This document shows, in pieces, positions 6,348 through 63,000 of a stretch of DNA of 64,000 nt (its first letter is position 1; every line of letters starts with the position of its first letter). Made by a program: the position numbers and the translations under genes. The stretch is from NCBI GenBank assembly GCA_024695865.1, contig JAILHI010000035.1:1-64000 (forward strand), in the 5' to 3' direction. The DNA is from Candidatus Gastranaerophilales bacterium. Lineage in GTDB: Bacteria; Cyanobacteriota; Vampirovibrionia; Gastranaerophilales; Gastranaerophilaceae. The notes under the pieces were generated by a model, which saw nothing but the letters and a program-made list of their open reading frames with translations, was not told where the DNA came from and did not search any database.

Positions 6348-6895
6348 TCTTTTTTCCTCTTTTCCGCCGCTATCTGCCAGACAAGTCCGAAGATTACCGC
6401 AATTACGATAACGGTTGCGGGAGAAATTTTTAAAAACAACGATAAAAATATTGTTCCCGCAAAAATGACCCACGACATTTTGTCCGTCATAGAGGTAGTC
6501 CACATTTCTTTAACAGAAAGATAAACAAGGATAATGACGGCAATGCCGACACCCCAGAAAATACTCTGTATAAAAGAAATCTTTAACAATTTATCCAAAA
6601 TCGTTGCGATTAAAATTATAGAGATAACGGGAGTCGAAATAATTCCCAAAAGTGCGGCGGCTGCGCCGATTTTTCCCCGAAGTTTATAGCCCGTAAAGGT
6701 TGAAATGTTTGCCGCAATAATACCTGGGATACTTTGGCTTAAAGCATAAAATTCCGTCAAATCTTCTTCCGTAATCCATTTTTTTTCGTCAATGATATAT
6801 TTTTTCATTAACGGTATAATTACATATCCCCCGCCTAAAAGTTGAAGTCCGAGAAGAAAAAACTGAATATAGATGTCTTTTATGGAAATCTTCAT
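6344..6895 (-). CDS. Chromate transporter CHR domain protein (first half-size subunit)
   Basis: A 183-residue integral membrane protein with the CHR motifs LLGGGYVIIPL (about 19-29) and SIPGIIAANISTFTGY. It overlaps the next CHR gene by 4 bp, so the two are translationally coupled and probably form a heterodimeric short-chain CHR transporter. Confidence 0.88.
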   Translation of the reverse strand: MKISIKDIYIQFFLLGLQLLGGGYVIIPLMKKYIIDEKKWITEEDLTEFYALSQSIPGIIAANISTFTGYKLRGKIGAAAALLGIISTPVISIILIATILDKLLKISFIQSIFWGVGIAVIILVYLSVKEMWTTSMTDKMSWVIFAGTIFLSLFLKISPATVIVIAVIFGLVWQIAAEKRKKE

Positions 6896-7031
6896 AAAAT
6901 CATTATATCATAAGGGTTTTGAAATATTGTTATAATTCTTTAACATGTGTTTACGTAATTTTAAAAAAAAGGCAATTTTTTGAAATCAAAATACTTTATA
7001 GAAACATAGAGAAAGATTTTGGAGAACAAGC

Positions 7032-7382
7032 ATGGGCTTAAATAAAATTGAGTCGTCGCAAATAGGCAATTTTGGTAAACTGACGGCATCAGGACATTCA
7101 AAAACAGGTAATTCTATTTTTGGAGATAACGCATGTCACCGTGTTTGTTCGTATGAAGATTCTTTCAACGGCATCTCTTACAAAGATGACGGCACTTATG
7201 ATTTCTTTAGCAAAAAAGGCAAAGAAAACATAGAAAATGAAATAAAAATTATGAAAAATGAGGATAAACCGAAAGCACCTCCGAAGAATTTTGCGATGAA
7301 TGCAAAATCTCTGATGATTTTGAAACAGGAACTCGGATATGAAGGACCTGAAAGAACTTCAACGTTGAGTTCGTTCGGTTAA
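7032..7382 (+). CDS. Hypothetical protein, 116 aa
   Basis: A small soluble protein with a GGAGAA site upstream of ATG 7032 and its own terminator behind it, so it is probably real and monocistronic. It is rich in Lys, Ser and Asn and shows two cysteines near residues 36-40 (CHRVC) but no recognisable domain, signal peptide or membrane segment. I do not recognise it. Confidence 0.6.
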   Translation: MGLNKIESSQIGNFGKLTASGHSKTGNSIFGDNACHRVCSYEDSFNGISYKDDGTYDFFSKKGKENIENEIKIMKNEDKPKAPPKNFAMNAKSLMILKQELGYEGPERTSTLSSFG

Positions 7383-7400
7383 AATAAAGATATAACTTGA

Positions 7401-7428
7401 AAACGGGATTGAAATATCCCGTTTTTTT
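7401..7428 (+). terminator. Rho-independent terminator
   Basis: A 9-bp stem AAACGGGAT/ATCCCGTTT, 6-nt loop, then a T-run, 18 bp after the hypothetical gene stop. Confidence 0.8.
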
Positions 7429-7491
7429 ATGCTTTCTTGAAAAATAACTTTTTTTTATTTATAATTTGGCATGACAAAGAAAGGAAATATT

Positions 7492-8148
7492 ATGTCTGTA
7501 AATCAATTGCCCGAAAATATGGGCAAAAAAATAGTTGAAGCATTGAAAAAACAAGCCATGCTTGACGAACAGAATAATGCCGCTCAAATGAGTGTAAATG
7601 AAAATGTTAATTTACAGGAAAATACGGTTTCCGATAATCAATATATTAAGGAACAGCCCTATATTAATGAAAATATAGCGGAAGAAACGGTTTACGGCAA
7701 TCAGAACAATGCGTTTGCAAATCAAAACTATGCTCAAAGTTATAACCAGCCCGTAAAAGAAAATCCGATGCAGTTTTCGCTTCCCAATTCGGCTAATCAG
7801 CCTCAAAATACGGCTATGTTTAATGCCTATTCTCCCGAATTGCCGACAAATGTTGCAGTTTTGAAGAATTTGATTTTTCATTTGCCTTCGGGTGTTTCAA
7901 AACAGGTTGGTGCACAGATTATAAGACAAACCATTGAAGCCCTCGGAATTTCGATGAACAGTGTTTTGCAGGAAGCGCAGCAGGTTCAGGAAACTCTGAA
8001 TAACAGCGTTACGGATTGCACAATCAAAATTCAGGAATACAAAAATCAGATTATGCAACTGGAAGCAAATACAAGAGATTATCAAAGACAAATGGGACAA
8101 ATTAACGATTTAATCAGTTTGTTCATTTTGACGGATAACAAAAAATAG
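7492..8148 (+). CDS. Hypothetical Asn/Gln-rich protein with C-terminal coiled coil
   Basis: 218 residues from ATG 7492, chosen because AAAGGAAAT lies just upstream; an in-frame ATG 21 bp earlier lacks a site. The first 115 residues are low complexity (Asn, Gln, Tyr). The last 100 are helical with heptad-like spacing (LQEAQQVQETLNNSV and on), suggesting oligomerisation. There are no catalytic motifs. I do not recognise it. Confidence 0.65.
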   Translation: MSVNQLPENMGKKIVEALKKQAMLDEQNNAAQMSVNENVNLQENTVSDNQYIKEQPYINENIAEETVYGNQNNAFANQNYAQSYNQPVKENPMQFSLPNSANQPQNTAMFNAYSPELPTNVAVLKNLIFHLPSGVSKQVGAQIIRQTIEALGISMNSVLQEAQQVQETLNNSVTDCTIKIQEYKNQIMQLEANTRDYQRQMGQINDLISLFILTDNKK

Positions 8149-30600: not shown

Positions 30601-30814
30601 AGTTTCCTCCATTCTTGCTTCCATTTATATGTTAGCAGACAGGTATGTCAAAACAGGATACAGTTTTCTTTGAAGATTTTATTTTGGAAACTTTTTGGTT
30701 AAATTTTTATTGAAAAAATTATTATTTTAACAAATTTGCCTTTATTTATAATAGATTGTAAAATAAAATTTATAGATAAATGTGTGCATACAAGACCAAT
30801 TGGGGATTACGGAT

Positions 30815-47024: not shown

Positions 47025-50000
47025 CTATTTTGCCTTTTTGGCATTGTCGCCGCCCAAAGCCCAACGGAAGCCAAAGGTGAAAGCGACACCGTTTCTTCCG
47101 CCGCCTCTGAACATAGCCTGTCCGAAGCCTGTAAATCTTTCACCGACGGTTTTCTGTAAACCTAAACCGTATTCGATGTAAGGTTTCATACTTGTTTCGG
47201 GAAGACCTATGTAGTTAGCGCTGACTTTTGTGTTACCCAAAAGGTTCCATTTCATGTTAACACCCAAGTAGGGCTGCCAGCCTTTAGGTAAGTTGCCGAT
47301 AACCTTTAATCCGGGTGATAACTGAATTGTGTGAGTTGATTCGGTATCAATTTTAACACCGTTGTTCAATGTGTAATCACCAAACGAATTTACGAAGGTA
47401 TAAGACATTGTCCAACTCGGCTGCAAGATTAATTTACCCTTGAACAATTCCCAGTTGTAGCCCGTTTTTGAAGCGATACCTGATGCAAGCATTGTCATAT
47501 CTGCTCTGCCGTAGAGAGTGCTGATATTTGCAACGTGAGCGCCGACGTTACCCGTTAAAGCGGTAAAGAAGTTGCCTTTGTACAATGCACCTGTTACACC
47601 TGCGACGCCGCCGTTCTGGTAGATACCGTTTCCGTCAAAGGTCTGGTGAGAACCGTTGTAACCTGCATAAACGGAAACCTGTGATTCCCAGCCGCTGTCA
47701 CCGAGTTCCATAACATCGGTGTCGCCGCCTACCAACATACCGTAAGAGATGTTGTTTACATCAGGGCCGTTTTCTAACTGAACAGTTTCAAATGAAGTAT
47801 AGGGTCTGAACCAGATACCTCTTGTCTCGTTTTGAGTCATCAACGGTGAGTAAACCGTCGGTGTTTTTTCGTCAGCCGCAGCATAAGAGTTTTGCTGTCT
47901 TAATGCTTTTCTTTGTTCCTGTGTCATCAACATTGTTTGGTCAAGGTTGCCGAAAGCGGTTTCATAGTTGTTTAACTGTGCGATTAAAGCACCCTGAGCC
48001 GCAACGCTTGAAGTGAATACTGAAGCATCATAGGAAACATAAGGATTTGAACCCTGATTTACGTTGTAAGTGAAGTAACCTTTTGTTCCGTCATCAACAT
48101 AGTTAACCAAATATTTGTAGATACCTGTATTTACCGTGCTGACAGTGGAAGTAACGTGACCGATTAAGGCTGCGTTGCCGAGGGCTGCGCTTACAAAGTC
48201 GGTTGTAAAGGTATTAGCGGTCGGTGTTCCGAAGATGTTCATACCTGCAACGTTTAAGTTTGCCACAGCAGTGATAGCGGGAGCGGTCAGAGTATCCATT
48301 GTCTGATTAGCCGCATCAACATCGACAAAGATGTTTGAATTTCCGTTAACGTTCAAGGCTGACAGGTTGATATTTGTAGCGGCGCCGTTCATCAAATCGA
48401 GAGAACCGCCGTTGAAGTCAACCGCATTGAGTTTTGCGGGGTTGTTTAAGTAGTTATCGTTGAGATATTTCAAAGTTCCGCCGAATAACTGCCATGAGAT
48501 TAACTCATCAACACCGCCTCTTATAACGTAAGCGCCTGTGTTTACTGCAATTAACGGGTCTAAAACACCGTTTAACTGAATTGTACCGTTATTGAAGATT
48601 AACTGGTTGTTTGCGTTATTTGAACGGATATCGTCGTTGATTGTCAAAGTATGACCGTTTGAAGTGTCTAATGTAACGGTTGATGCCGTACCGCCTGCGT
48701 TATCGTAGAAGATTGCGTTGGTGTTTGCACCGTTTGTGCCTGAAATTACGACGTCGTGGTTTTCAGCCTGAATTGTCAGATTGCTGTTTTCGTTGACCGT
48801 AATTGCACCCGTATTTCCTGCCATTGTGGTTACGTTGGAAACGCTTGTATCTTTAAGAGTAAGATTACCGTCTTTTGTTCCGCTTCCGACCGTCAGACCC
48901 GAATTAACGATTGCGTTTCCGTTACCCGAAATCGTTATGTTACCTACGATATCGGTTGCAGGGTTGCCTGCTTCGTTTGAGTCCATAGCATAGTTGTAAT
49001 ATGCGTTTTCATCTCCTGCCGTTTCGCTTGATGTCAGAACGTTTGTAAGGGTTGTTCTTACACCCGTAATCTGACCTGTTGCGGCATTGTAGGAAACAGA
49101 GTTTGCATCGCCTTTTGATGTAATCAGTTCGATATCCTGAATTGCGGCTTTTGATTTTGCAGAACCGTTGATAACCGAAATAGAAGCACCGTCTTCAACA
49201 CCTGTCATATCAAGTTTTGTGATTAAGATGTCACCGTTAACGAAAGTATCATCTGCCGTTAAGGAGTCATTCCAGTCTATTTCAAGATTTAAGGTTGAAT
49301 CGCCCGATACATCAAGTTTGTTTCCGTAATTGAGGGTATCTGACGAGCCGTCTAACATTTTGATTGTAGCGGTATTGCCGTTTTTTACACCGATTTTGCT
49401 TGCGCTGTCCTGAAAAGCATCACCTGCGCCTTTTGTAAGGGTTGCACCGCTTGTCAGGTAAACACGGCCGGTATAGTCTATTGTTGCATCAGATACGATA
49501 TTGCCGCTGAGATTTAAGTCTGCACTTCCCGAGCCCTGAATTTTACTCTTGTTGTCCTCGTTGAAGGTTATGTTTTCGTCAAGCAGAGTAAGTTCGCTTC
49601 CGAAGCCGCCCAGTGTAATCGTACCTGTTACATCGTTTAATTTAGTGAACATTTCGCCCTGGTTAGTTACATCACCGTCGATAGTACCCATGTTTGTAAC
49701 AGTATCGTGGTTTTCGACATTACCTGTGATTGTACCGAGGTTGGAAACGGTGCCCATGTTGCTGATATCACCTTCGACAGTTGCCTGGGCATTGTTTGTA
49801 AAGCCGCCGAAAACTTTGTTGTCAACGTTACCGAGAATTGTTCCGTTATTGACAACCTCTGCGGAAGTGTTTTGAATATCGCTTGAAACAGTACCGTTGT
49901 TTACAAATACGCCGTCAGCCTGATTTTTTATATCGCCATAGATAACGCCGTCATTAGCCATTTCTCCTGCGGTATTTGTTACATCACCCGTTATAATACC

Positions 50001-53000
50001 TGCGTTGTAGGCTGTTCCCGAGTTGGAGAAATCACTTATCAGCATTGCTTCGGGAATGGTTTCTTCCGTATTTCTCGGATTAACACCGTGCATAAAGGTT
50101 CCTGCGTTGGTTACCTTTGTTGCATTAATGTCGCCGCCGTTTATAAAGGTTGCGCCTGCATTGTTTGTAATTGTTGTGGTTTCAGCGCCTGTTGTGTCGA
50201 TTGTAGCGCCGACCGTATTTGCAAAACTGCCGTCATTTGTAATGTAGTTAAAGATTTTGTTGTTATTTACGACTACACCCTCTGCGGCATTTACAATGTT
50301 TGCTTCAACCGTTGCATCATTGATGAAAATGCCTGCGTTGTTCAAAGTACCTGACAACAATCCTGCATTGTGCATATTAGCGTTGTTTGTAATATCAGCC
50401 GTTACATGTGCTTCGGGAACAATTTCTTCGGGATTTTCGGGATTTGAGCCGTTGTAGAATTCGCCGTCGTTTGTGATTGTTCCGGTAGCAACAGTGCCTA
50501 CGTTTACAAATACCGCTTTTTCGTTGTTTGTAACGGATTTTGCGTATTGTGCACCTGTCAAATCAATTGTGCCTGCGTTGTAAATTTTACCGCTGTTTTC
50601 AATTTCACGGTTGTATTTGTTGTCGATGTTGATTGTACCAGATTTAATATATACGGCACCGTTTTCGCCGACCAATAAGCCGCCTCTTGCAGTTATGTTG
50701 TCAGCATTTTCGATAATGACAGTACCTGAATTTACATCAATGAGTGACTGAACAATTTTTGTATCAGCGCCGATAGTCATTGTTGTATTTGTTGCTTCGG
50801 GGTCCTCGTTGCCGAATTCGTCAAGTCCGAGATTGAAGTGTGTATAACCTAAACCTTCAATACCGCCGTCGAGAGTGGAGGCATTACCGTAGAAGTACAA
50901 ACCTCCGGATGATGATGCATTGTTTGTTATATCGTTTTTGACATAATCAACAATAGGTGTTTCTCCGTCGTAGGTGATTTTTCTTGCGTAGTTATTTGAG
51001 AACGTTACACCGTCTAACATAAGTTTTGCGCCGTTGCCGTTGTAGATAGCGCCGCCCATCATATCTTCATTCCATTTCGGGTTTTCAAGGTCAAGCAGGT
51101 AATGATTTGAGTAGTTACCTTTGAACGTTGAATCTTTAATGCTGAGATATGAGCCTTTGTTGTAGATAGCACCGCCGTTACCCGAAGTGTTTGATAAGAA
51201 ATCGGAATTTGTGATGTGAACTAATATTTTATCAAAAGAATTTGCAGCGGGCATTAATGCGATAGCACCACCCATTGAGTTTGTCTGACTGATATTGTCA
51301 GATGTTAGAGTTGCCGAGTCAACCGCTTTTGTTTCGTTCATTACAAAGGTTGTGTTATTGATGTTTATACCGTATGGAGCATTTGACAGCATATAATCAT
51401 AATATAATGCACCACCCTGTGCTGTACCTTTTACGGTTGTGTATTCATTTTCTAATTGGGCTGCCTGTGCAATGTTGCCGATAAATGATGAATCCGAAAT
51501 GTTCATATCAACTCTTGATGCCAATAAAGCACCACCAAAGGCAGAAGTGTTATAAAGAGCATCACCATCTTCTTCGACAGTACCTGCGATGTTGTTCATA
51601 AACATTGTGTTTGTAATATTTACATCTCTGTTTATTGCTCCTTCGTTTGAATTATGCGTAACATATAAAGCACCTGCTTCAGCCGTTCCTTCGGGTATTG
51701 CGCTGATTGCAGCGTTATCTGTAAATAACGAATCGCTGATATCGAGGTCGCCTTTTGCAAAAACCGCACCGCCGCCGTCAACTATGCCGGGAAATCCGCC
51801 GTTTGCACCTTTTGTGGAAATTGCTTTGTTGTTCATAAAGACTGAATCGGTAATTACGGATTTGAAGTGGTCACCCTGAATGTAATGACCTGTTTCGGGG
51901 TCAATTACTCTTTCATAACCGTCTTTTGTGATGAGGTAAACAGCACCGCCCATACCGAAGGTATGATTATCAACAGCCGTTCCCGCACCTTTTGCATAGT
52001 TGTCGGAGAACGTTACGTTATGGAGTTCCAAAACGGAATCTTCAACGTCTAAAGCACCGCCTGTACCGAAACTTTCCAAATTGGAGGCTTTTTTTGTAAA
52101 GCCCTGAAACAGTTCCAAATCGTTGATGATAAGGTGAGGAGTCAGGAAATCTTCTTCGGGCGGATATAACTGAGTGGGAATACGGATACCCGAATATTCA
52201 TTGCCGTCTGTAATAAGAATACCGTGGTTGCCGTTGATGGTGAGTGTTCTTTCAACAAAATAACCTTCATCATCGTAGTGGTACATATATCCGAGGTCTG
52301 AGTCCGCAACTGTAACATCAGGCATATCGTATTCAGATACCGTAATGTCTTTTAATGCTTCCTGCAAAGTCATTGAACGGTCTTTTGTGGTTGTATAGTA
52401 AAACACGCCCTTATCAGCAGGACTTTGTGTAAATGTATATTTCAAACCGCCATACTGTGTTGTGGAATCTGCAAAGGTTGCACTTCCATCAGTAAACAGC
52501 CTGAATGCACCGCTTGTTTTAGTTGTATCTGCACCGATAATATTTACTGCGAGTTTAGCCGTTCCTCCGCTTACAATAATAAAAGGGTCAACAGAAGAAT
52601 CGTTGCCTGTAAGATTTGCATCAACCATAAATTTGTTGTTTGAATCATCAAGACGTATCCAACCGATGCCCAAATTATCATCAATGTAGCCGTTTACGGT
52701 GTTGATAATTGAATCTCTGTACAAAAACATTTCCATGATATTGGTTTCTGTTCTTGCATTAGATGCAACTTTTTCGGTTGAGAATGAAGCACCGTTATCA
52801 AGGCTCATACAGCCTATATCTATATAACCTGCAGCGGTATCTTTGTTACTGCTTATAATTTGAATATCAGATGAGCCCTCTGCTCTGATATCACCGATAG
52901 TAATACCTGAAGGACCTGTCGGATTGGGACTTGACGGGTCGAGAGCAGAACTGTCCGCATAAAGTCTTAACTTGCCTCTTACATCATTATTATTTCTTAC

Positions 53001-53648
53001 GGTATAAAGATAAATGTCGTTATTTACTACACTGCCGTTTATATAAGCCAAGTTATCAACAATATCAACATCAGAACCCGGAAGTGATATAATTTTGTTT
53101 ATACCGTAATCAAGATACAAGCCGCCGCCCTTATCACCTGATGTATTATTTTTAATATTTGTATTTGCTAAATATACACCGCCGCCCCAGTTGATGTCGG
53201 AATATATTGCTCCGCCTTTTCCTGATGCATAGTTATCTGTGATAGTGGTCATCAAAGGCTCTTTGCCAGCATTAAACAATGATGATAAAGCAACAAGACT
53301 TGCATCATTGGTCAAATTGAAAGCACCGCCGTTGCCTGTTGTATGAAATCCTGTTATGCCTTTTAAATGATTTACGGTATAACCGACACCGTCACCTTTA
53401 AAGCCCGAATGACCGTTGCCTATTATTTTGAAATAATGTGCAGTTGTTATATCTTGAAGATTATTTATTTCAAAATATCTTGTTGTGTTTAGCGGCAAAT
53501 CTGCACTGATTGACTGGTCTGACGGCATAATAAATTTTGATACGCTCGTATCATTCAATGCCTGCTCCAATGCCGACGGCTCGGCATACGCCTGAGTCCC
53601 CGCCACCGCTGCGGAAAGCATTAACGCCGTTAATAGTTTCTTTTTCAT
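47025..53648 (-). CDS. Giant autotransporter with POMP-type repeats
   Basis: 2207 residues. A signal peptide (MKKKLLTALM to AYA, about 22) leads. The passenger to about 900 carries many GGA(I/L/V) and FxxN motifs (GSGGAIYNK, FSDNYAKG, FMNNIAG), like chlamydial polymorphic outer membrane proteins. From about 1000 to 1300, NNGT-I-x-G-V-x-N repeats suggest a regular beta-helix. The last 270 residues (from RGIWFRPYTSFE to FGFRWALGG) form a type V beta-barrel. It implies an outer membrane and a surface adhesin role. The three glycosyltransferases upstream could modify it. Confidence 0.92.
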   Translation of the reverse strand: MKKKLLTALMLSAAVAGTQAYAEPSALEQALNDTSVSKFIMPSDQSISADLPLNTTRYFEINNLQDITTAHYFKIIGNGHSGFKGDGVGYTVNHLKGITGFHTTGNGGAFNLTNDASLVALSSLFNAGKEPLMTTITDNYASGKGGAIYSDINWGGGVYLANTNIKNNTSGDKGGGLYLDYGINKIISLPGSDVDIVDNLAYINGSVVNNDIYLYTVRNNNDVRGKLRLYADSSALDPSSPNPTGPSGITIGDIRAEGSSDIQIISSNKDTAAGYIDIGCMSLDNGASFSTEKVASNARTETNIMEMFLYRDSIINTVNGYIDDNLGIGWIRLDDSNNKFMVDANLTGNDSSVDPFIIVSGGTAKLAVNIIGADTTKTSGAFRLFTDGSATFADSTTQYGGLKYTFTQSPADKGVFYYTTTKDRSMTLQEALKDITVSEYDMPDVTVADSDLGYMYHYDDEGYFVERTLTINGNHGILITDGNEYSGIRIPTQLYPPEEDFLTPHLIINDLELFQGFTKKASNLESFGTGGALDVEDSVLELHNVTFSDNYAKGAGTAVDNHTFGMGGAVYLITKDGYERVIDPETGHYIQGDHFKSVITDSVFMNNKAISTKGANGGFPGIVDGGGAVFAKGDLDISDSLFTDNAAISAIPEGTAEAGALYVTHNSNEGAINRDVNITNTMFMNNIAGTVEEDGDALYNTSAFGGALLASRVDMNISDSSFIGNIAQAAQLENEYTTVKGTAQGGALYYDYMLSNAPYGININNTTFVMNETKAVDSATLTSDNISQTNSMGGAIALMPAANSFDKILVHITNSDFLSNTSGNGGAIYNKGSYLSIKDSTFKGNYSNHYLLDLENPKWNEDMMGGAIYNGNGAKLMLDGVTFSNNYARKITYDGETPIVDYVKNDITNNASSSGGLYFYGNASTLDGGIEGLGYTHFNLGLDEFGNEDPEATNTTMTIGADTKIVQSLIDVNSGTVIIENADNITARGGLLVGENGAVYIKSGTINIDNKYNREIENSGKIYNAGTIDLTGAQYAKSVTNNEKAVFVNVGTVATGTITNDGEFYNGSNPENPEEIVPEAHVTADITNNANMHNAGLLSGTLNNAGIFINDATVEANIVNAAEGVVVNNNKIFNYITNDGSFANTVGATIDTTGAETTTITNNAGATFINGGDINATKVTNAGTFMHGVNPRNTEETIPEAMLISDFSNSGTAYNAGIITGDVTNTAGEMANDGVIYGDIKNQADGVFVNNGTVSSDIQNTSAEVVNNGTILGNVDNKVFGGFTNNAQATVEGDISNMGTVSNLGTITGNVENHDTVTNMGTIDGDVTNQGEMFTKLNDVTGTITLGGFGSELTLLDENITFNEDNKSKIQGSGSADLNLSGNIVSDATIDYTGRVYLTSGATLTKGAGDAFQDSASKIGVKNGNTATIKMLDGSSDTLNYGNKLDVSGDSTLNLEIDWNDSLTADDTFVNGDILITKLDMTGVEDGASISVINGSAKSKAAIQDIELITSKGDANSVSYNAATGQITGVRTTLTNVLTSSETAGDENAYYNYAMDSNEAGNPATDIVGNITISGNGNAIVNSGLTVGSGTKDGNLTLKDTSVSNVTTMAGNTGAITVNENSNLTIQAENHDVVISGTNGANTNAIFYDNAGGTASTVTLDTSNGHTLTINDDIRSNNANNQLIFNNGTIQLNGVLDPLIAVNTGAYVIRGGVDELISWQLFGGTLKYLNDNYLNNPAKLNAVDFNGGSLDLMNGAATNINLSALNVNGNSNIFVDVDAANQTMDTLTAPAITAVANLNVAGMNIFGTPTANTFTTDFVSAALGNAALIGHVTSTVSTVNTGIYKYLVNYVDDGTKGYFTYNVNQGSNPYVSYDASVFTSSVAAQGALIAQLNNYETAFGNLDQTMLMTQEQRKALRQQNSYAAADEKTPTVYSPLMTQNETRGIWFRPYTSFETVQLENGPDVNNISYGMLVGGDTDVMELGDSGWESQVSVYAGYNGSHQTFDGNGIYQNGGVAGVTGALYKGNFFTALTGNVGAHVANISTLYGRADMTMLASGIASKTGYNWELFKGKLILQPSWTMSYTFVNSFGDYTLNNGVKIDTESTHTIQLSPGLKVIGNLPKGWQPYLGVNMKWNLLGNTKVSANYIGLPETSMKPYIEYGLGLQKTVGERFTGFGQAMFRGGGRNGVAFTFGFRWALGGDNAKKAK

Positions 53649-54795: not shown

Positions 54796-55215
54796 TCGTC
54801 ATTGTGACTCTCTTGGTTTCAGAGATTGCTTCGGACAAGCCTCGCAAAGACGGTGTCTTTGTCTTTATCGTCATTGCGAGCCGACTTGTCGGCGTGGCAA
54901 TCCTTTTCGGTTTTGGTAGACTAAAGTCTACCCTACATTTTTGTTTTATCGTCATTGCGAGGGCGTAAGCCCGTGGCAATCTCTTTTGTTTTTTTTCTGT
55001 CATACTGAGCGATAGCGAAGTATCCGGCTGATTTTATTCAATTGTTTTGATTTTGTCATGCTGAATTCATTTCAGCATCTGTCCTTTTCGGCTGGATTCT
55101 TCACCCTTTCGGGTTCAGAATGACATTTTCTGTTTTTTTCGCCGGATTCCGAAACAAGTTCGGAATGACGGTTTTTTGTTCTTTTGTCATTGCGAGGGCG
55201 TAAGCCCATGGCAAT
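54796..55215. repeat. Repeat block; includes long direct repeat copy 2 (54999-55178)
   Basis: At least three 'cattgcgag...ggcaatc' hairpins and the second copy of the 180-bp direct repeat. No gene in this gap. Confidence 0.85.
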
Positions 55216-55882: not shown

Positions 55883-56806
55883 TTAATCAAACAGTTTCAG
55901 TTGTTTATCTTCAATCTTTAAAAGTTTTTTGAGTTTGATAATCTCGTCAGAGTAGTCAAGACACAAATAGTGTGATTTGTTTGCGATATAACTTTTCATT
56001 TTCTCGTAATACTTCGGGTCGGTATCTTTCAGGTAGGACATATAGCCCGTAATCACGTTAAAGCCTGTTTTTTTGACAAACAAAACGTTTACGCCGAGCC
56101 GTTCTTCGATATACAGCGATTTAAGATATCTGAAAATTACCGCACGTATTTTGTGTTTGTTTAATTTTGAAATCGCCGTATTTTTGTTGTTTACCAAAAC
56201 GCCGAGGACTTCCTGTCTTTTGTTGCCGCTGATGTATTTTGTTTTTTCGTCGTTCAGGGAAAAATTGTTGTGCGCCAAAAGGTTTCGGACAAATTCTTCC
56301 GTTTCTTGCAGTAGTGATTTGTTGTCGGCGGAAAAGGTCATATCGTCCATATATCTTGAATAATTGACTTTGTTTTGTCTGCAAAATTCGCAGATAACTT
56401 CATCAATTTTGGTAATCTTAAAGGCAAGGTTGGCTAGATGTGCCGAAGTCAGTGCTCCCGTGGGCAGTTTTCCGTTAAGCGTGCAAAGTTCATAAACGTT
56501 TTCTTCATCAAGTTCGGTTTTGTATTCCGTTCGCAAATTTTCGCATAACTCTTTGATTCCCCTGATGATTTGCTCTTTTGAAAACGAGTCGTAAAAACTT
56601 TTTATATCTGTTTTTAAAAGCCATTTTCTTCCGCAATGCACTCGTGCCGCATTTTTTGTATTAAGGCTGAGGTTATAGACCATTTTTATACAGGATAAGA
56701 TATGTTTTTGCTGCTGTCTTAAAATATCGCAGGGAGCGTAAATCGTTCTGTCTTTTGTTTCATAGACCTCATAAAACATTTGGGAATTTACAAAAACTTT
56801 TTTCAT
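55883..56806 (-). CDS. Retron-like reverse transcriptase
   Basis: 307 residues. The RT core is seen in KTDIKSFYDSFS (D67), LPTGALTSAHLANL, and the catalytic YMDD (152-155) in SRYMDDMTFS. NAARVH (52-57) fits the NAxxH motif of retron RTs; QEVLGVLVNNK occupies the place of the retron VTG motif with Thr changed to Leu. Length fits retron RTs (about 300). No X/maturase or endonuclease domain, so it is not a group II intron. Its start overlaps the DnaB-like gene stop by 4 bp, so they form one unit. No msr-msd was recognised. Confidence 0.8.
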   Translation of the reverse strand: MKKVFVNSQMFYEVYETKDRTIYAPCDILRQQQKHILSCIKMVYNLSLNTKNAARVHCGRKWLLKTDIKSFYDSFSKEQIIRGIKELCENLRTEYKTELDEENVYELCTLNGKLPTGALTSAHLANLAFKITKIDEVICEFCRQNKVNYSRYMDDMTFSADNKSLLQETEEFVRNLLAHNNFSLNDEKTKYISGNKRQEVLGVLVNNKNTAISKLNKHKIRAVIFRYLKSLYIEERLGVNVLFVKKTGFNVITGYMSYLKDTDPKYYEKMKSYIANKSHYLCLDYSDEIIKLKKLLKIEDKQLKLFD

Positions 56807-57627
56807 GAAAATACCGTCCTTATGTAGTCTTCGGTTGAAAAGTCTGCAAAAATACCTTTTTCGGTTTTAAGACATACTGTGAAAAGGTCGCCGAATTTGT
56901 TTTTACGCAGAAGAATTTCCGCCTGATTTTTGGTATCCTTGTCGTCATCGTTGTAATATTTTGACCTGTAAATCATCATAATGACGTCGGATAAGTCTTC
57001 CAAAAGGCTGCCGTTGCGCAGGTCTGAGAGTATCGGTCTTTTGTCGCAGCGGGCTTCGGGCGCTCTTGAAAGTTGCGAAGTCAAAACCACGATGGTATTG
57101 TATTCGATTGCAATTCTTTTGATTTCTTTTATTGCAAGATTTATTGCCTCGGTTAAATTGGGCGCTTTCGGCATTTGTAGGCATTGAATACTGTCAATAA
57201 ATACAACATCAGGCTTTTCCGCTCTGATTTTTTCTTCAAGTTCATCAACGGTCAGATTCATTTTGCAAAAAACTTCAAAATTTTTGTCATTGTAAAACTG
57301 AATTGCGTTTGTTATTTTTTCCCATTCCTCTGTTTTGCTTTTAACCGCTTCTAACGGCTGGGGAATTTTGGTTTTTGCCGATATAAATCGTCTTTCGATA
57401 ATAAGTTTTGATGTACCAAGTTCGCAGAATAAGACCTTTTTGCCCGTTTCCAAAAGGTGATTGCAGATTGAAATTGCAAACGAACTTTTGCCCATAGCGG
57501 GTCTTGCGCCTATTGTAATAACACTTCCTTTTGTTACGCCTGTCAAAAAAGCGTCAAGGTCTTTAAACCCTGTTTCAAAATATTTTTTATCTTCTTCGTA
57601 AAACTGTATAAATGCTTCACCAAACAT
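56803..57627 (-). CDS. DnaB-type RecA-fold helicase domain protein (short)
   Basis: 274 residues. Walker A GARPAMGKSS (40-49), Walker B VVFIDSIQ, and the SQLSRAPEARCDKRPILSDLRNG then LEDLSDVIMMIYR block are those of the DnaB C-terminal domain. The DnaB N-terminal (primase-interaction) domain is missing, so it is not the replicative helicase. AGGAGG precedes the ATG. It is coupled by a 4-bp overlap to the reverse transcriptase and divergent from a WYL regulator. Confidence 0.85.
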   Translation of the reverse strand: MFGEAFIQFYEEDKKYFETGFKDLDAFLTGVTKGSVITIGARPAMGKSSFAISICNHLLETGKKVLFCELGTSKLIIERRFISAKTKIPQPLEAVKSKTEEWEKITNAIQFYNDKNFEVFCKMNLTVDELEEKIRAEKPDVVFIDSIQCLQMPKAPNLTEAINLAIKEIKRIAIEYNTIVVLTSQLSRAPEARCDKRPILSDLRNGSLLEDLSDVIMMIYRSKYYNDDDKDTKNQAEILLRKNKFGDLFTVCLKTEKGIFADFSTEDYIRTVFS

Positions 57628-57866
57628 GTTTTTTACCTCCTTATATTAGGATTATAAAATTTATGTGCGTCAAAACAGGACATAGAAAACGAAGTTTTTT
57701 CATCATTTCAATTATTTGGAACGAAAAATTATACTGCCTTACTGCGACAAAAGATGTCTTGTATAATTTTTGTAAAAATTTTTTTGCAAAAAATCGGCAT
57801 TTTTACAAAATAAGATAAAATAAGTATATCCTTAAATGATATATAAACTTGAAATTATTTTAAAAA
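57628..57866. other. Divergent intergenic region of the RT-DnaB and WYL genes
   Basis: Over 230 bp, very AT-rich. On the minus strand TTGCAA-17-TTATAC and a TATAAT (near 57728-57733) could serve as promoters. I looked for paired inverted repeats typical of retron msr-msd and saw none convincing; a diverged one cannot be excluded. Confidence 0.4.
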
Positions 57867-57900
57867 GATTGCCACGAGGCAAAAGCCTCTCGCAATGACG
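57867..57900. repeat. Short dispersed palindromic repeat
   Basis: 'gattgccacgaggc-aaaa-gcctctcgcaatgac', 34 bp before the WYL gene. Confidence 0.85.
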
Positions 57901-57933
57901 ACACAAAGAGAAAAACAACAAACGGAGAGTAAT

Positions 57934-58920
57934 ATGGCGGAACAAACTATCAGAAATTCAAGAGAATCAAATATCATCGAAATTTTAATAAATATGCAGA
58001 AAAGACCCAGTGGTGTCTGTATTAACGACATTATGGAAGAATATGATGTCAAAAGAAGTACGGCTGAAAGATGGCTTAATGCCATAAAAAACGTTGTTCC
58101 TGCCGTTGATGAAATCGAAAACCTTTCTACAAAAAGAAAATACTGGGGTTTCGTAGATTTTTCAATGCCCTCTCTTATCAATTTTTCTGCCGAGGAAATC
58201 GCAAATCTTGAACGGCTTAAAGCCGAGTTTGCAAAAAACGGGTTCAAGGATAAGGAAAAACTAACCGACTCAACCTTGCAAAACATCAAACTGCTTAATA
58301 AAAGCAGAAAACTGAAAGTGGACAACAATCTTGAAATACTTATGCGGACAGAAGGTTTTGCCGTAAAGCAGGCGCCTAAATTTAACATCGATTTGAGAGT
58401 TCTTGATACTATCCGTGAGGCAATGAAAACAAACAAAAAAATCAGTGCGGTTTATCACGACAAACCCCGTTCCCTCTGTCCTTTGGGACTTGTTTACGGG
58501 GAAAAAATATATCTTATCGCAAAAGAAAAATCAAAAGGCGATATTCCGTGTTATTACATTCTGCATAAAATGTCCGAGGTTAAGGTTACGCACGAAAGTT
58601 TTGACAGAGGCGATTTTGACCTTGAAGAATTTTCCCAAAAGTCTTTTGGCATCTATCAGGGCGAAATGTATGACGTAAAACTTTTGTTCTCGAAGAATGT
58701 TGCGGAAGATGTTTTAAATTATCAGTTCCACTCAACGCAAAAGATTAAACAAAACGAGGACGGAACGGTTACGGTAAAATTCAAGGCATCGGGCGAATAT
58801 GAGATGATGTGGCACCTGTTTAAATGGGGTACTGATGTTAAAATTCTCGCCCCCGCAAACCTCAGAAAACAGTATATAGATATGCTTCAGAACGTAACGG
58901 AACACCAAAAGGAAAAATAA
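57934..58920 (+). CDS. HTH-WYL transcriptional regulator
   Basis: 328 residues from ATG 57934 (GGAGAG upstream). The N-terminal winged helix (about 10-60; VCINDIMEEYDVKRSTAERWL) is DeoR-like, followed by a WYL domain near 175-235 (KISAVYHDKPRSLCPLGLVY) and a C-terminal WCX region. It is divergent from the RT-DnaB operon, a common position for WYL regulators of defence loci, and coupled to the His-rich gene. Confidence 0.9.
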   Translation: MAEQTIRNSRESNIIEILINMQKRPSGVCINDIMEEYDVKRSTAERWLNAIKNVVPAVDEIENLSTKRKYWGFVDFSMPSLINFSAEEIANLERLKAEFAKNGFKDKEKLTDSTLQNIKLLNKSRKLKVDNNLEILMRTEGFAVKQAPKFNIDLRVLDTIREAMKTNKKISAVYHDKPRSLCPLGLVYGEKIYLIAKEKSKGDIPCYYILHKMSEVKVTHESFDRGDFDLEEFSQKSFGIYQGEMYDVKLLFSKNVAEDVLNYQFHSTQKIKQNEDGTVTVKFKASGEYEMMWHLFKWGTDVKILAPANLRKQYIDMLQNVTEHQKEK

Positions 58921-59460
58921 ATGAACGAAGAAATCAGAAATATTTTAAACGGTGTCAGAGACGGAGAAAAGATTATTGCTTATATAGAAGCACTTGAAGA
59001 GCATTTGCATCACCATCATCACGATGACAACTGCGACTGCGGCTGCCACGATGAAGATGATGAGGAGGAATGGAAAGAGGTAAAAACTCCTTACAAAAAT
59101 CATCTGAGTGTTAAAGATTGGGAAAAACTCCTGAAAGACAAAACTCTTTTCACAAGAGATGCTCTCATTGTTTTAAAGAGAATGCGTCATGTTGCGGCGC
59201 CGACAGACTCAATGGAATTGGCTGATACATTTGGCTTAGGCGCATTGTATTATGCTTATGAAATGCAAAATCTTGCAGAAAGACTTGTTCCTTACGTTAA
59301 GGCTGAAAATCTTAAACAGACGGAGCAATGGTCAATATTGTTTAAGTGTTGGGAACTTCAATATTCATATGCAAGAATTTTCGGCTTAATACCCGAATTG
59401 TACGAGGCACTCGGCAATGTCGATTTGTCGGATATTCCGCTCAGAGAAAACGAGGTGTAA
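58921..59460 (+). CDS. His/Cys/acid-rich hypothetical protein coupled to WYL gene
   Basis: 179 residues, starting immediately after the WYL stop. Residues 28-52 form a potential metal site: HLHHHHHDD, then CDCGCHDEDDEEE. The remaining 120 residues are helical and hydrophobic-faced. No known domain. Metal storage or metal-dependent signalling to the WYL regulator is possible. Confidence 0.6.
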   Translation: MNEEIRNILNGVRDGEKIIAYIEALEEHLHHHHHDDNCDCGCHDEDDEEEWKEVKTPYKNHLSVKDWEKLLKDKTLFTRDALIVLKRMRHVAAPTDSMELADTFGLGALYYAYEMQNLAERLVPYVKAENLKQTEQWSILFKCWELQYSYARIFGLIPELYEALGNVDLSDIPLRENEV

Positions 59461-60062: not shown

Positions 60063-63000
60063 CTAAACCCTAGAAAATTTAATATTAGGCAATATAATAG
60101 CATATTCTTGCTCTTGTTCATCATCTTGTTTTTTCCAATATACTATAAATCTGATATTTGCATCTGTAATTTTATATCCTTGTTTTAACAATGATTCAAT
60201 TTTATTCCTACATGAAGCAGAATATTTTAATGCTTTTGTTTCCTGACCATTAAATTTAACCAATAAGCTATCATTTGAGGGGATTAATTGTTTCCCACTT
60301 CTCAATTTTGGAATAATATTTTGCTTATATTTGAAATAATCCAATACAACATCCTTATGTGTTAGTTGTAAAATTATGTCATCCGAACTGTTATATTCAT
60401 TATTATTGAATTCATTATCGATGAATTCTAATTGATTAAATTGTTCAAAAATACTATCATTATAGTGTATTAAAAGATTGTTCTTTGCACGGGTTATTCC
60501 TACATATAATTTTCTTTTATTTTCGTCATTAGGTACAGAATCTGTACTCATAAGCATATATACATTATCATATTCATGACCTTTTGCCTTATGTATAGTT
60601 GATATTGTTATCATTCCACTTTCATTATCATAAAAATCTTCAAATTTTGCCTCTGTAAAAAAGGTTTCTAAATCACTATAATATTTTGTTGGATTTGTCT
60701 TTTCAAAATCGTCCATCATTCTTAGAATAATAGGCAGTATGTTACTACTTTTAAAGAAATTCTGCAATTGAACCTTTATATTATTCCATAAATTTTCATT
60801 TATTTGAACCGGATTATTCTTCTTAGCCAACAACCACATTATAAAGCGAATTTCCTGCAAGCATGAAAGGTTAAAGCCATCTAATGATTGAATTAATCTT
60901 GCCGGAATATTTTTTTTATTAAGTATTCCCAAAATTTTTAATGCTTCATCATTTGTTTTTGTTAATATACAGGTTGAACCGGGTAGTCTGTCTTTAATAA
61001 GATTTTCAACTAATGGTTCTTCAAAATTTTTAGATGTATATTTTACAAATTTTACTTGCCCTCCTTCTTTATCTGTTACACAATTTAATTCTTTCATTCT
61101 TTTTCGTATAGTATTTGCAAATGCATTTGCAAAAAGTACTATATTTTGGCAGCTTCTGTAATTTCTTACCATTTCATATTTTATAGCACCATATTTTGTT
61201 ATAAATTCTTGTAAGTATTTTGAATCCGAGCCTCTAAACTCATAAATATTTTGATCATCATCACCAACTGCAATTAAACGCATCTCGTCATTATAATTTA
61301 TCAAAGCTTCTACTAATGCAAACTCATCTTCTGACATATCTTGAGCTTCATCAATAACAAGAACTGCTTTTGCAATTCTTGCAGGTTCAACACTTCCAAG
61401 ATTAATCAAATTTACAGCATCTTTAACGATAGTATCAGAATTTTCTAATGAACCGGGTCTACCAAGAATATCAAAACAGAAAGAGTGGAATGTTTTAATT
61501 TCTACATACGAAGCGCTAGAGCCTATTAACCCCTGTAATCTTTTTTTAAACTCAATTGCTGCTGCTCGTGAAAATGTTAACATTAGCAATTGTTCTGATT
61601 TAATATCTTCAAGGGTTAATAATGAAGCTAACTTATGAACTAAAACTTTTGTTTTTCCGCTACCTGGACCTGCCGCTACGACTATGTATTTAGATTTATC
61701 ATCTTTTATTATTTCCTGTTGTTTCTCAGACAATTCTCCAAACAGCTTTCTATATCGTCCCGGAGTCATATTTATTTGAATTTCTTTATCTCTACCTTTA
61801 AAATACTTTCCTATGAACTCTTTATAATCAAGTCGAAAATAATCTTTTATAAATTCAATAGCTTTTTGGTAATTTTTAACCAAAATATTTAACAATTCAC
61901 CAATTATGTGAATTTGTTGAATTTTCTGCTTGTAATAACTATCCAAAAATTTATAATCATCTTTCTTATATTTAATCTTATTATCTTTAACTAAACGAAT
62001 AATTTCAAAACTATTATACAGAACCAGGAAACCACCTTCTAATGCCAAAACATGTGTACGATGAAGCCATAATAAAGCATTTTCTATGTCTTTTAAATCT
62101 ATTTCAAACAAATGTAATAAACTGTTTTTATAAGCATTTAATAATTCTACGGTTGAAAATGAAACGTAAGAACATTGATTCTCTTGTACTGTTTTCCTTC
62201 GAAGATATTCAACAATAAAAGAACATAAACTTATACGTTTATTGAATGCATTTTTAATTTCTTCAATATCTTTTAATAATACAATTTCTGTTTTTTCATC
62301 AAGATTACTTTTACCCTTTTCTGCAAAAGAACATATTTTCCAGTAATTAAAGATAGTACGTAAATATTTTATTTCACATCCTATCCCTTGATTTTGTATT
62401 GTTTCATTTAATAATTTTAATGAAAAAATGTTTTTAGAACTCGTAATTGAATCAATTAACCAACCTTCAATTTTTGTATATTTATCAAGTAATTTTTCAG
62501 GAGAATCATTTATTACAGCACTCATATCATTGTCATCAGCAAGAAGATTGATTTGTTTCATTAAACTTATAACCTCAAGAACCCTTTGTTTCTCAACACC
62601 AAGAACATCCGCAAGCCAATCAACTCTTGATTCGGCATCAGCATTCCCGGCTTTTGCTCTGCTGCGACTTGAAATTAGGTTCTTAATTATCCTCTTTGCC
62701 AACACTTTTTGATCTTCATCAAATAATTTTGCATTTTCAATTATCTCACCTGCACTAATAAAATTTTCTGCATTTATACTTGTAGCATACACTCGTGGCA
62801 TATTTTGTCCGCGTTTAATATATCCGGCTTTCTCTAAAGCCAGAAGTGCAGTTTTAACTTTAATCTCTACATCTTGATTGCTTATTTCTTCACTGGTCCA
62901 GCCTGCCTTTCTTGCAATCTCAATAGCTGATCGACACATGGTATTTCTTTTTTGCGTGAATTTTTTTATTGCAGACCATACTTGTTGAATCTCATTTAAT

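Follow-up and report, generated by a model that had tools for sequence, protein, structure and literature searches.

The stretch of DNA analysed here, referred to as the window, comprises 64,000 nucleotides (positions 1-64,000 of contig JAILHI010000035.1, assembly GCA_024695865.1) of a Candidatus Gastranaerophilales bacterium. At positions 55883-57627 its minus strand carries a gene for a short DnaB-type ATPase (DnaB_C) followed by one for a reverse transcriptase (RT). The ORF coordinates bear out what an earlier note on this DNA had stated: the two genes overlap by 4 bp (ATGA), and the gene of a WYL regulator is divergent. One relative, L030, keeps the small protein encoded next to the regulator (55% identity) together with WYL.

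Table 1. Features of the dnaB-RT locus, numbered along the window.
Feature	Position	Strand	Description
RT ORF	55883-56806	-	307 aa; retron-clade reverse transcriptase; YMDD, motif X AARVH, motif Y VLG
DnaB_C ORF	56803-57627	-	274 aa; ATPase without N-terminal domain
-10 box TATAAT	57651-57656	-	9 bp downstream of operator; assigned from sequence
Palindromic operator TATGTC-CTGTTTT-GACGCA	57666-57684	-	before dnaB-RT; spacer 7 bp
WYL/WCX regulator ORF	57895-58920	+	divergent; Pfam WYL+WCX; presumed operator binder
ORF of unknown function	58921-59460	+	179-aa protein; starts directly after WYL stop

Elsewhere in the window lie a fused RecQ-UvrD helicase ORF of 1272 aa (60063-63881, minus strand) with DpdF- and GajB-like profile matches, whose N-terminus is seemingly cut, ~0.5 kb before the contig end; a secreted, repeat-rich, autotransporter-like protein of 2207 aa (47025-53648, minus strand); and several CATTGCGAGggcgtaagcccGTGGCAATC-type intergenic repeats around small genes (54840-55210).

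The RT, the only one encoded in the window genome, matched Pfam RVT_1 at 5.8e-17. Its best profiles were those of retrons (PADLOC II-A 2e-45, St85 family 7.8e-44, III-A 8e-43), with a score that stays under the curated NCBIfam cut-off. Profile comparison gave 8e-39 for retron Ec86 versus 3e-15 for a group II maturase, and none of the Drt2/3/4/5 or DRT models was matched above its cut-off (Drt3a 52 bits, cut-off 200; Drt2 40 bits, cut-off 390). YMDD and the replacement of VTG by VLG are present as described earlier. The NAxxH motif, on the other hand, had been read one residue off: when N-A-A-R-V-H of the window is aligned to NATPH of Ec86 it becomes xAxxH, with Ala at the Asn position. Throughout the DnaB-linked clade motif X reads [TACS]AxxH, the Asn being replaced in every case; this residue is also missing in the known retrons Ec48 and Mx65 (PMC6868368). 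Motif Y is [VIL]LG in all readable clade members versus [VI]TG in the other readable genome-contig retron RTs. Region Y steers retron RTs to their own msr (PMC6868368), so that an altered motif together with an altered RNA is coherent.

We placed the RT in a maximum-likelihood tree of 98 RTs, 35 of them DnaB-linked. The latter form a single clade (support 100/99) inside a part of the tree (96/99) that also holds Ec78, Ec86, the retron XII/TIR retron RT and VTG retron RTs; because some reference branches are long, the exact sister of the clade is unsure. Tree position and profile ranking thus both uphold the retron-like nature claimed for the RT. A grouping with group II introns, which the earlier note had set against its own reading, did not occur: the clade lies away from LtrA, and tree and profiles exclude a group II origin. 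A DGR reading was set aside on profile evidence only.

Scans of viral and genome contigs returned nothing with a single RT query and found relatives with an alignment query. A class-wide scan detected the RT in 23 of 382 genomes, with 26 copies in total, the window copy among them. Through named contigs of identical sequence these copies are assigned to Candidatus Gastranaerophilales (Melainabacteria, Cyanobacteriota), here bacteria of gut and rumen; a few of the contigs concerned bear the label Bacteroidales or Christensenella, possibly through mis-binning. A DnaB_C gene immediately precedes the RT gene in each of the 25 relatives examined at the outset and again at 37/37 Gastranaerophilales loci from genome contigs, the window copy being one more; many genomes are common to both sets. 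Among 43 other retron RTs (Bacilli, Clostridia and others; ≤35% identity), DnaB is adjacent in none. The pair is therefore conserved far beyond chance, since every one of the 37 relatives keeps both genes, and the separation of the pair in other genomes that had been envisaged as a counter-argument was not encountered. DnaB_C thereby takes the place of the effector or accessory gene of a retron, as a putative effector.

Proteins encoded around the module loci include PDDEXK_4, AbiEii and integrase proteins. At L049 (G303) an FtsZ-like GTPase (310 aa) and a 677-aa AAA-like protein are encoded before dnaB-RT, ~0.9-3.9 kb upstream of the RT, and at L052 a related 660-aa protein precedes dnaB-RT, with the operator ahead of it. 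A replication or mobility module, that is, an integrated element or phage satellite copying itself with the RT and the short DnaB, would account for the DnaB-type helicase domain and for the tyrosine recombinase found directly upstream of dnaB in L037, L038 and L106. However, none of 80 RT relatives on viral contigs, all ≤34% identical, has DnaB adjacent, neither shared element boundaries nor a replication origin were seen, and the neighbours are variable with defence-type genes among them, which makes such an element highly improbable.

The partner protein matched the Pfam DnaB_C profile at 6.3e-51 (profile positions 3-248), lacks the N-terminal domain, as had been claimed, and is strongly similar also to solved DnaB structures. 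In one alignment of the DnaB_C partners the Walker A Lys and the Walker B Asp never vary and the H3 Gln hardly does; 13/26 retain the catalytic Glu and only 2-3/26 an Arg as arginine finger. The window protein retains Walker A, Walker B and the H3 Gln and has Gly at the catalytic Glu position and Lys as arginine finger. The roles assigned to these residues are those generally known for DnaB. A replicative DnaB would be expected to have an N-terminal domain, the catalytic Glu and an arginine finger, all of which the window protein lacks; a separate full-length DnaB of this genome is encoded on contig C97. Because the catalytic Glu is often and the arginine finger mostly lost, a processive ring helicase appears unlikely, and an ATP-binding DnaB mimic, favouring an effector or decoy role, is the more likely reading of these residues. 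Alignment-free AlphaFold prediction of DnaB_C gave a poor model (pLDDT 42), which was left unused.

Loss of these residues in many partners could also mean that the locus is a decayed remnant in which DnaB_C drifts as a pseudoenzyme without function. Two loci fit such decay: in L106 (G184; 6588-7639) the RT has been deleted naturally, leaving dnaB_C and the small RNA described below side by side with a tyrosine recombinase upstream, and in L035 the RT is interrupted by a stop. Against this, the two Walker residues are invariant, and open frames, YxDD and adjacency are retained down to ~34% RT identity; of all explanations weighed here we consider decay the least probable, and extremely so.

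Directly behind the RT gene, encoded on the other strand and convergent with it, we found a conserved element with a predicted RNA of ~120 nt. It consists, in order, of a 19-bp palindrome, TATAAT, a bulged hairpin, a linker, a variable hairpin and a terminator-like hairpin. Hairpin 1 (GGYRAGYG-NNN-CGCY-NNN-RCC) is nearly fixed in structure, the linker that follows is single-stranded and CACGAATAA-type, the sequence of the second hairpin varies freely, and the 3' hairpin abuts or overlaps the RT stop. In 22 training sequences 93.5% of the cells were paired and both sides had changed in 12/20 pairs. The 41 double-changed cells were matched by 0/500 shuffles, controls that leave shared ancestry in, and shifted partners abolished the signal; on 37 distinct sequences the count rose to 89. 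The mean fold z was -5.5. G.U outnumbered A.C 35 to 7, which favours an RNA strand opposite the RT and led us to reject the RT-strand reading of the element; by folding energy alone the two strands could not be told apart (the RNA strand had the lower value in 19/36). Rfam holds no family for the small RNA and gave no match in the window region either. Weak R1 matches in G048, G100:C6, G120:C1:95881 and G243:C10 were discarded as gene ends with terminators.

A conserved non-coding RNA in the 300 bp upstream, where the earlier note had proposed to look, was not found; that space accommodates no more than the operator with its -10 box and a short leader. A canonical upstream msr-msd was accordingly rejected, there being no room (38 bp from operator to dnaB ATG in the window) and no conserved structure. 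Inverted repeats of the a1/a2 kind were likewise not detected, the duplex of the predicted 5' and 3' RNA ends scoring -6.9 versus -7.2 kcal/mol for shuffled sequences.

The small RNA lies in cis at 33/37 loci, always convergent, and is absent from all 43 distant retron RT loci. Among the exceptions, two loci are cut off by the end of their contig, one of them being G324/L105, whose continuation on a different contig carries the RNA beside the RT C-terminus; in G375 (L131) the RNA is on a separate contig; and in G205 (L116) RT and dnaB are present and the RNA was not found in the genome. The separate copy in G375 (L104, 5970-6991) adjoins a WYL fragment and a recombinase-like ORF, a tyrosine recombinase by inspection. 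The window has no copy 3' of its RT. A candidate trans copy in the same genome lies on contig C97 (53284-53427, minus strand), between genes read from sequence as leuB and a TPR gene. It is the only match at E≤1 of a promoterless model (32.5 bits, E 0.0018) and the best match (E 4.8e-6) of a promoter model from whose training it was withheld, a score to which the operator contributes; it has a near-perfect long second hairpin and a terminator (fold z -7.2). The window genome's RNA is thus probably supplied in trans from C97. The four other genomes of the window's genus have neither the RNA nor a close RT. Over the class, the RNA was found in 22/23 RT-positive versus 1/359 RT-negative genomes (Fisher p ~2e-33, uncorrected for kinship), the sole RT-negative carrier being G184, which keeps dnaB and RNA. 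In G243 a second copy lies 12 kb away, behind a WYL gene.

The convergent position, where the 3' hairpin reaches up to or into the RT stop, and the RNA's own promoter and operator would also suit a regulatory sRNA or an antisense tail of the RT message that tunes the RT, in which case RT-DnaB would use another, unseen RNA. Copies on other contigs (window genome, G375) or 0.5-0.9 kb from the RT (L123, L128, L129) mean that antisense pairing cannot be general. Together with the nearly fixed structure of hairpin 1 and the lack of any other conserved RNA upstream, they render this explanation decidedly unlikely.

Operon and RNA share a promoter architecture. The operator consensus, TAYGWC-N7-GWCRTA, stands 9 bp ahead of the -10 box. 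It precedes dnaB in at least 19/26 loci, lying before the upstream gene of the same operon in L032 and L052, and is found before 20/22 RNAs and many WYL genes; it is weak or absent at the dnaB loci L036, L039 and L041 and missing at the L035 and L037 RNAs. An attC/integron reading of the repeated motif was dropped in favour of a promoter/operator, which fits better as a -10 box follows and then a start codon or the RNA. The 7-bp spacer tends to be common to the operators of one genome, and the window operator has the same spacer as other operators of its genome, that of the trans RNA included. With ≤3 mismatches, TAYGTC-CTGTTTT-GACGTA occurs at 15 sites in the window genome versus 1 for the reversed control. 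These sites precede dnaB-RT, the trans RNA and genes read from sequence, without profiles, as AAA, HNH-like, UvrD-like and dnaE; the last (G000:C39:33176-33194, L284) is an operator-like site with 3 mismatches, from which a WYL regulon may include DNA-damage genes. Within the window an operator with the CTGTTTT spacer and 3 mismatches (30644-30662, minus strand) stands ahead of a 75-aa ORF, possibly of the same regulon, and a weaker match to the promoter model (23 bits) lies at 38152-38235 on the plus strand.

The occurrence of the operator before the dnaB-RT operon, the RNA and the WYL genes suggests one WYL regulon covering all three. WYL kin were encoded inside the fetched flank at 25/37 relatives versus 0/43 other retron loci, and we infer that the neighbouring WYL protein binds the putative operator. 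BrxR, a WYL regulator of defence islands, binds to inverted repeats (PMC9122601), and in PafBC ssDNA binds the WYL domain and promoters carry a -26 motif (PMC11804915). No -35 box at normal spacing was found at the operator promoters, the inner half-site occupying -27 to -22. This placement resembles the PafBC -26 motif, and activation by ssDNA (PafBC, DriD) is therefore as likely as BrxR-type repression.

Judged by sequence, these parts make up a Gastranaerophilales three-part module of a retron-like RT, a DnaB-type ATPase reduced to its C-terminal domain and a small structured RNA. Comparison shows that RT and DnaB_C share one operon; that the ~120-nt RNA has a separate gene which goes with the RT, either convergent with it on its 3' side or at another genomic location; and that operon, RNA gene and island WYL genes have the same putative palindromic operator, set a constant 9 bp ahead of the -10 box. 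G184 (dnaB and RNA without RT) and G205 (RT and dnaB without a detected RNA) run counter to a tripartite reading. The module looks like a jointly regulated variant of the bacterial anti-phage retrons, probably with an anti-phage role.

In the mechanism that we propose, the WYL protein would control all three promoters. The RT would bind the RNA via hairpin 1 and copy part of the linker or of hairpin 2 into DNA, and the resulting RT-RNA(-DNA) complex would keep DnaB_C in check. Phage interference with the complex would release DnaB_C, a presumed ATP-binding DnaB mimic that has no primase-binding domain and in most cases no arginine finger, and the protein might then poison or block replication forks, so that the infected cell or the phage ceases replication. 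That the module is a lineage-specific, retron-like tripartite defence of Candidatus Gastranaerophilales working in this manner is the reading we prefer, though to us an evenly balanced proposition. VTG and the Asn of NAxxH are lost throughout the clade and a1/a2-like pairing was not found, which calls classical 2'-5' primed msDNA into question.

The same losses could indicate a DRT-like system, in which the RNA templates untypical DNA (for example repetitive or protein-primed) upon infection and DnaB_C aids synthesis or strand displacement, with no caged toxin. The RNA, with its own promoter, a stable stem-loop followed by a conserved single-stranded linker and a size like that of the 137-nt DRT10 RNA (PMC12632851), would agree with this. 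The RT, however, falls among the retrons in the tree and scores far lower with the Drt2, Drt3a and group II models, and loss of the arginine finger in most DnaB_C makes a working helicase unlikely; we judge a DRT-like system unlikely as a whole. Returning to the retron-like module, a bolder version would make it a distinct class of RT immunity, with an own-promoter RNA placed even at another locus, recognition and priming unlike msr-msd, an ssDNA-sensing WYL activator in a feedback loop with the RT's DNA product, and a replication-jamming DnaB mimic as effector. We advance it tentatively, as possible but doubtful.

The module breaks the retron search rule of a structured RNA upstream of the RT, and searches anchored there therefore miss such systems. 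An entire clade that lost VTG and the Asn of NAxxH while gaining a new RNA is a natural test of retron RT-RNA recognition. The module further adds a replication-protein mimic as candidate effector and, for an order of uncultured bacteria from gut and rumen, connects a WYL operator with an RT module; covariance model and operator pattern can be used by others to find more.

Retrons consist of RT, ncRNA and effector (PMC12548924), and reviews count 13-16 types (PMC12548924, PMC13405049). By its clade and set of parts the module appears as a retron variant outside every listed type. We call it a variant and not a member of a listed type because it departs from retrons in four of the features tested: where the RNA lies, the pairing of its ends, the VTG motif and the Asn of NAxxH. 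The suspicion that the module is distinct held up: a DnaB partner is absent from PADLOC and from every listed retron type found, and the literature searched yielded no description of a DnaB-linked retron or of a trans-encoded retron RNA, a novelty that rests partly on PADLOC, NCBIfam and statements in reviews.

With retrons (II-A, III-A and X by RT profile; Ec86/Eco1 as closest solved RT by profile) the module has in common the RT clade and the layout of RT, partner gene and structured ncRNA with a variable long hairpin. It differs in its DnaB_C partner, in VTG changed to [VIL]LG, in the replaced Asn of NAxxH, in lacking a1/a2 pairing, and in an ncRNA with its own promoter, convergent behind the RT or in trans; the standard cassette has msr-msd upstream of the RT (PMC6868368), and an msr-msd in cis, upstream and on the same strand was not found in the module. 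DRT2, DRT9 and DRT10 likewise combine an RT with an ncRNA without the classical msr-msd layout, but their RT phylogeny differs and their partner is not DnaB-like; the DRT10 ncRNA is encoded upstream of its partner gene (PMC12632851). Bacterial and phage DnaB helicases have the same RecA-fold DnaB_C domain and Walker A/B motifs, whereas the module protein is without the N-terminal domain and has largely parted with the catalytic Glu (13/26 kept) and the arginine finger (2-3/26). Finally, the WYL regulator and inverted-repeat operator in islands with defence-type genes recall BrxR/CapW, and the half-site at about -26 recalls the promoters of PafBC/DriD; compared with both, the operator sequence, predicted to be bound by the WYL protein, is new, and its target is an RT-DnaB-ncRNA module.
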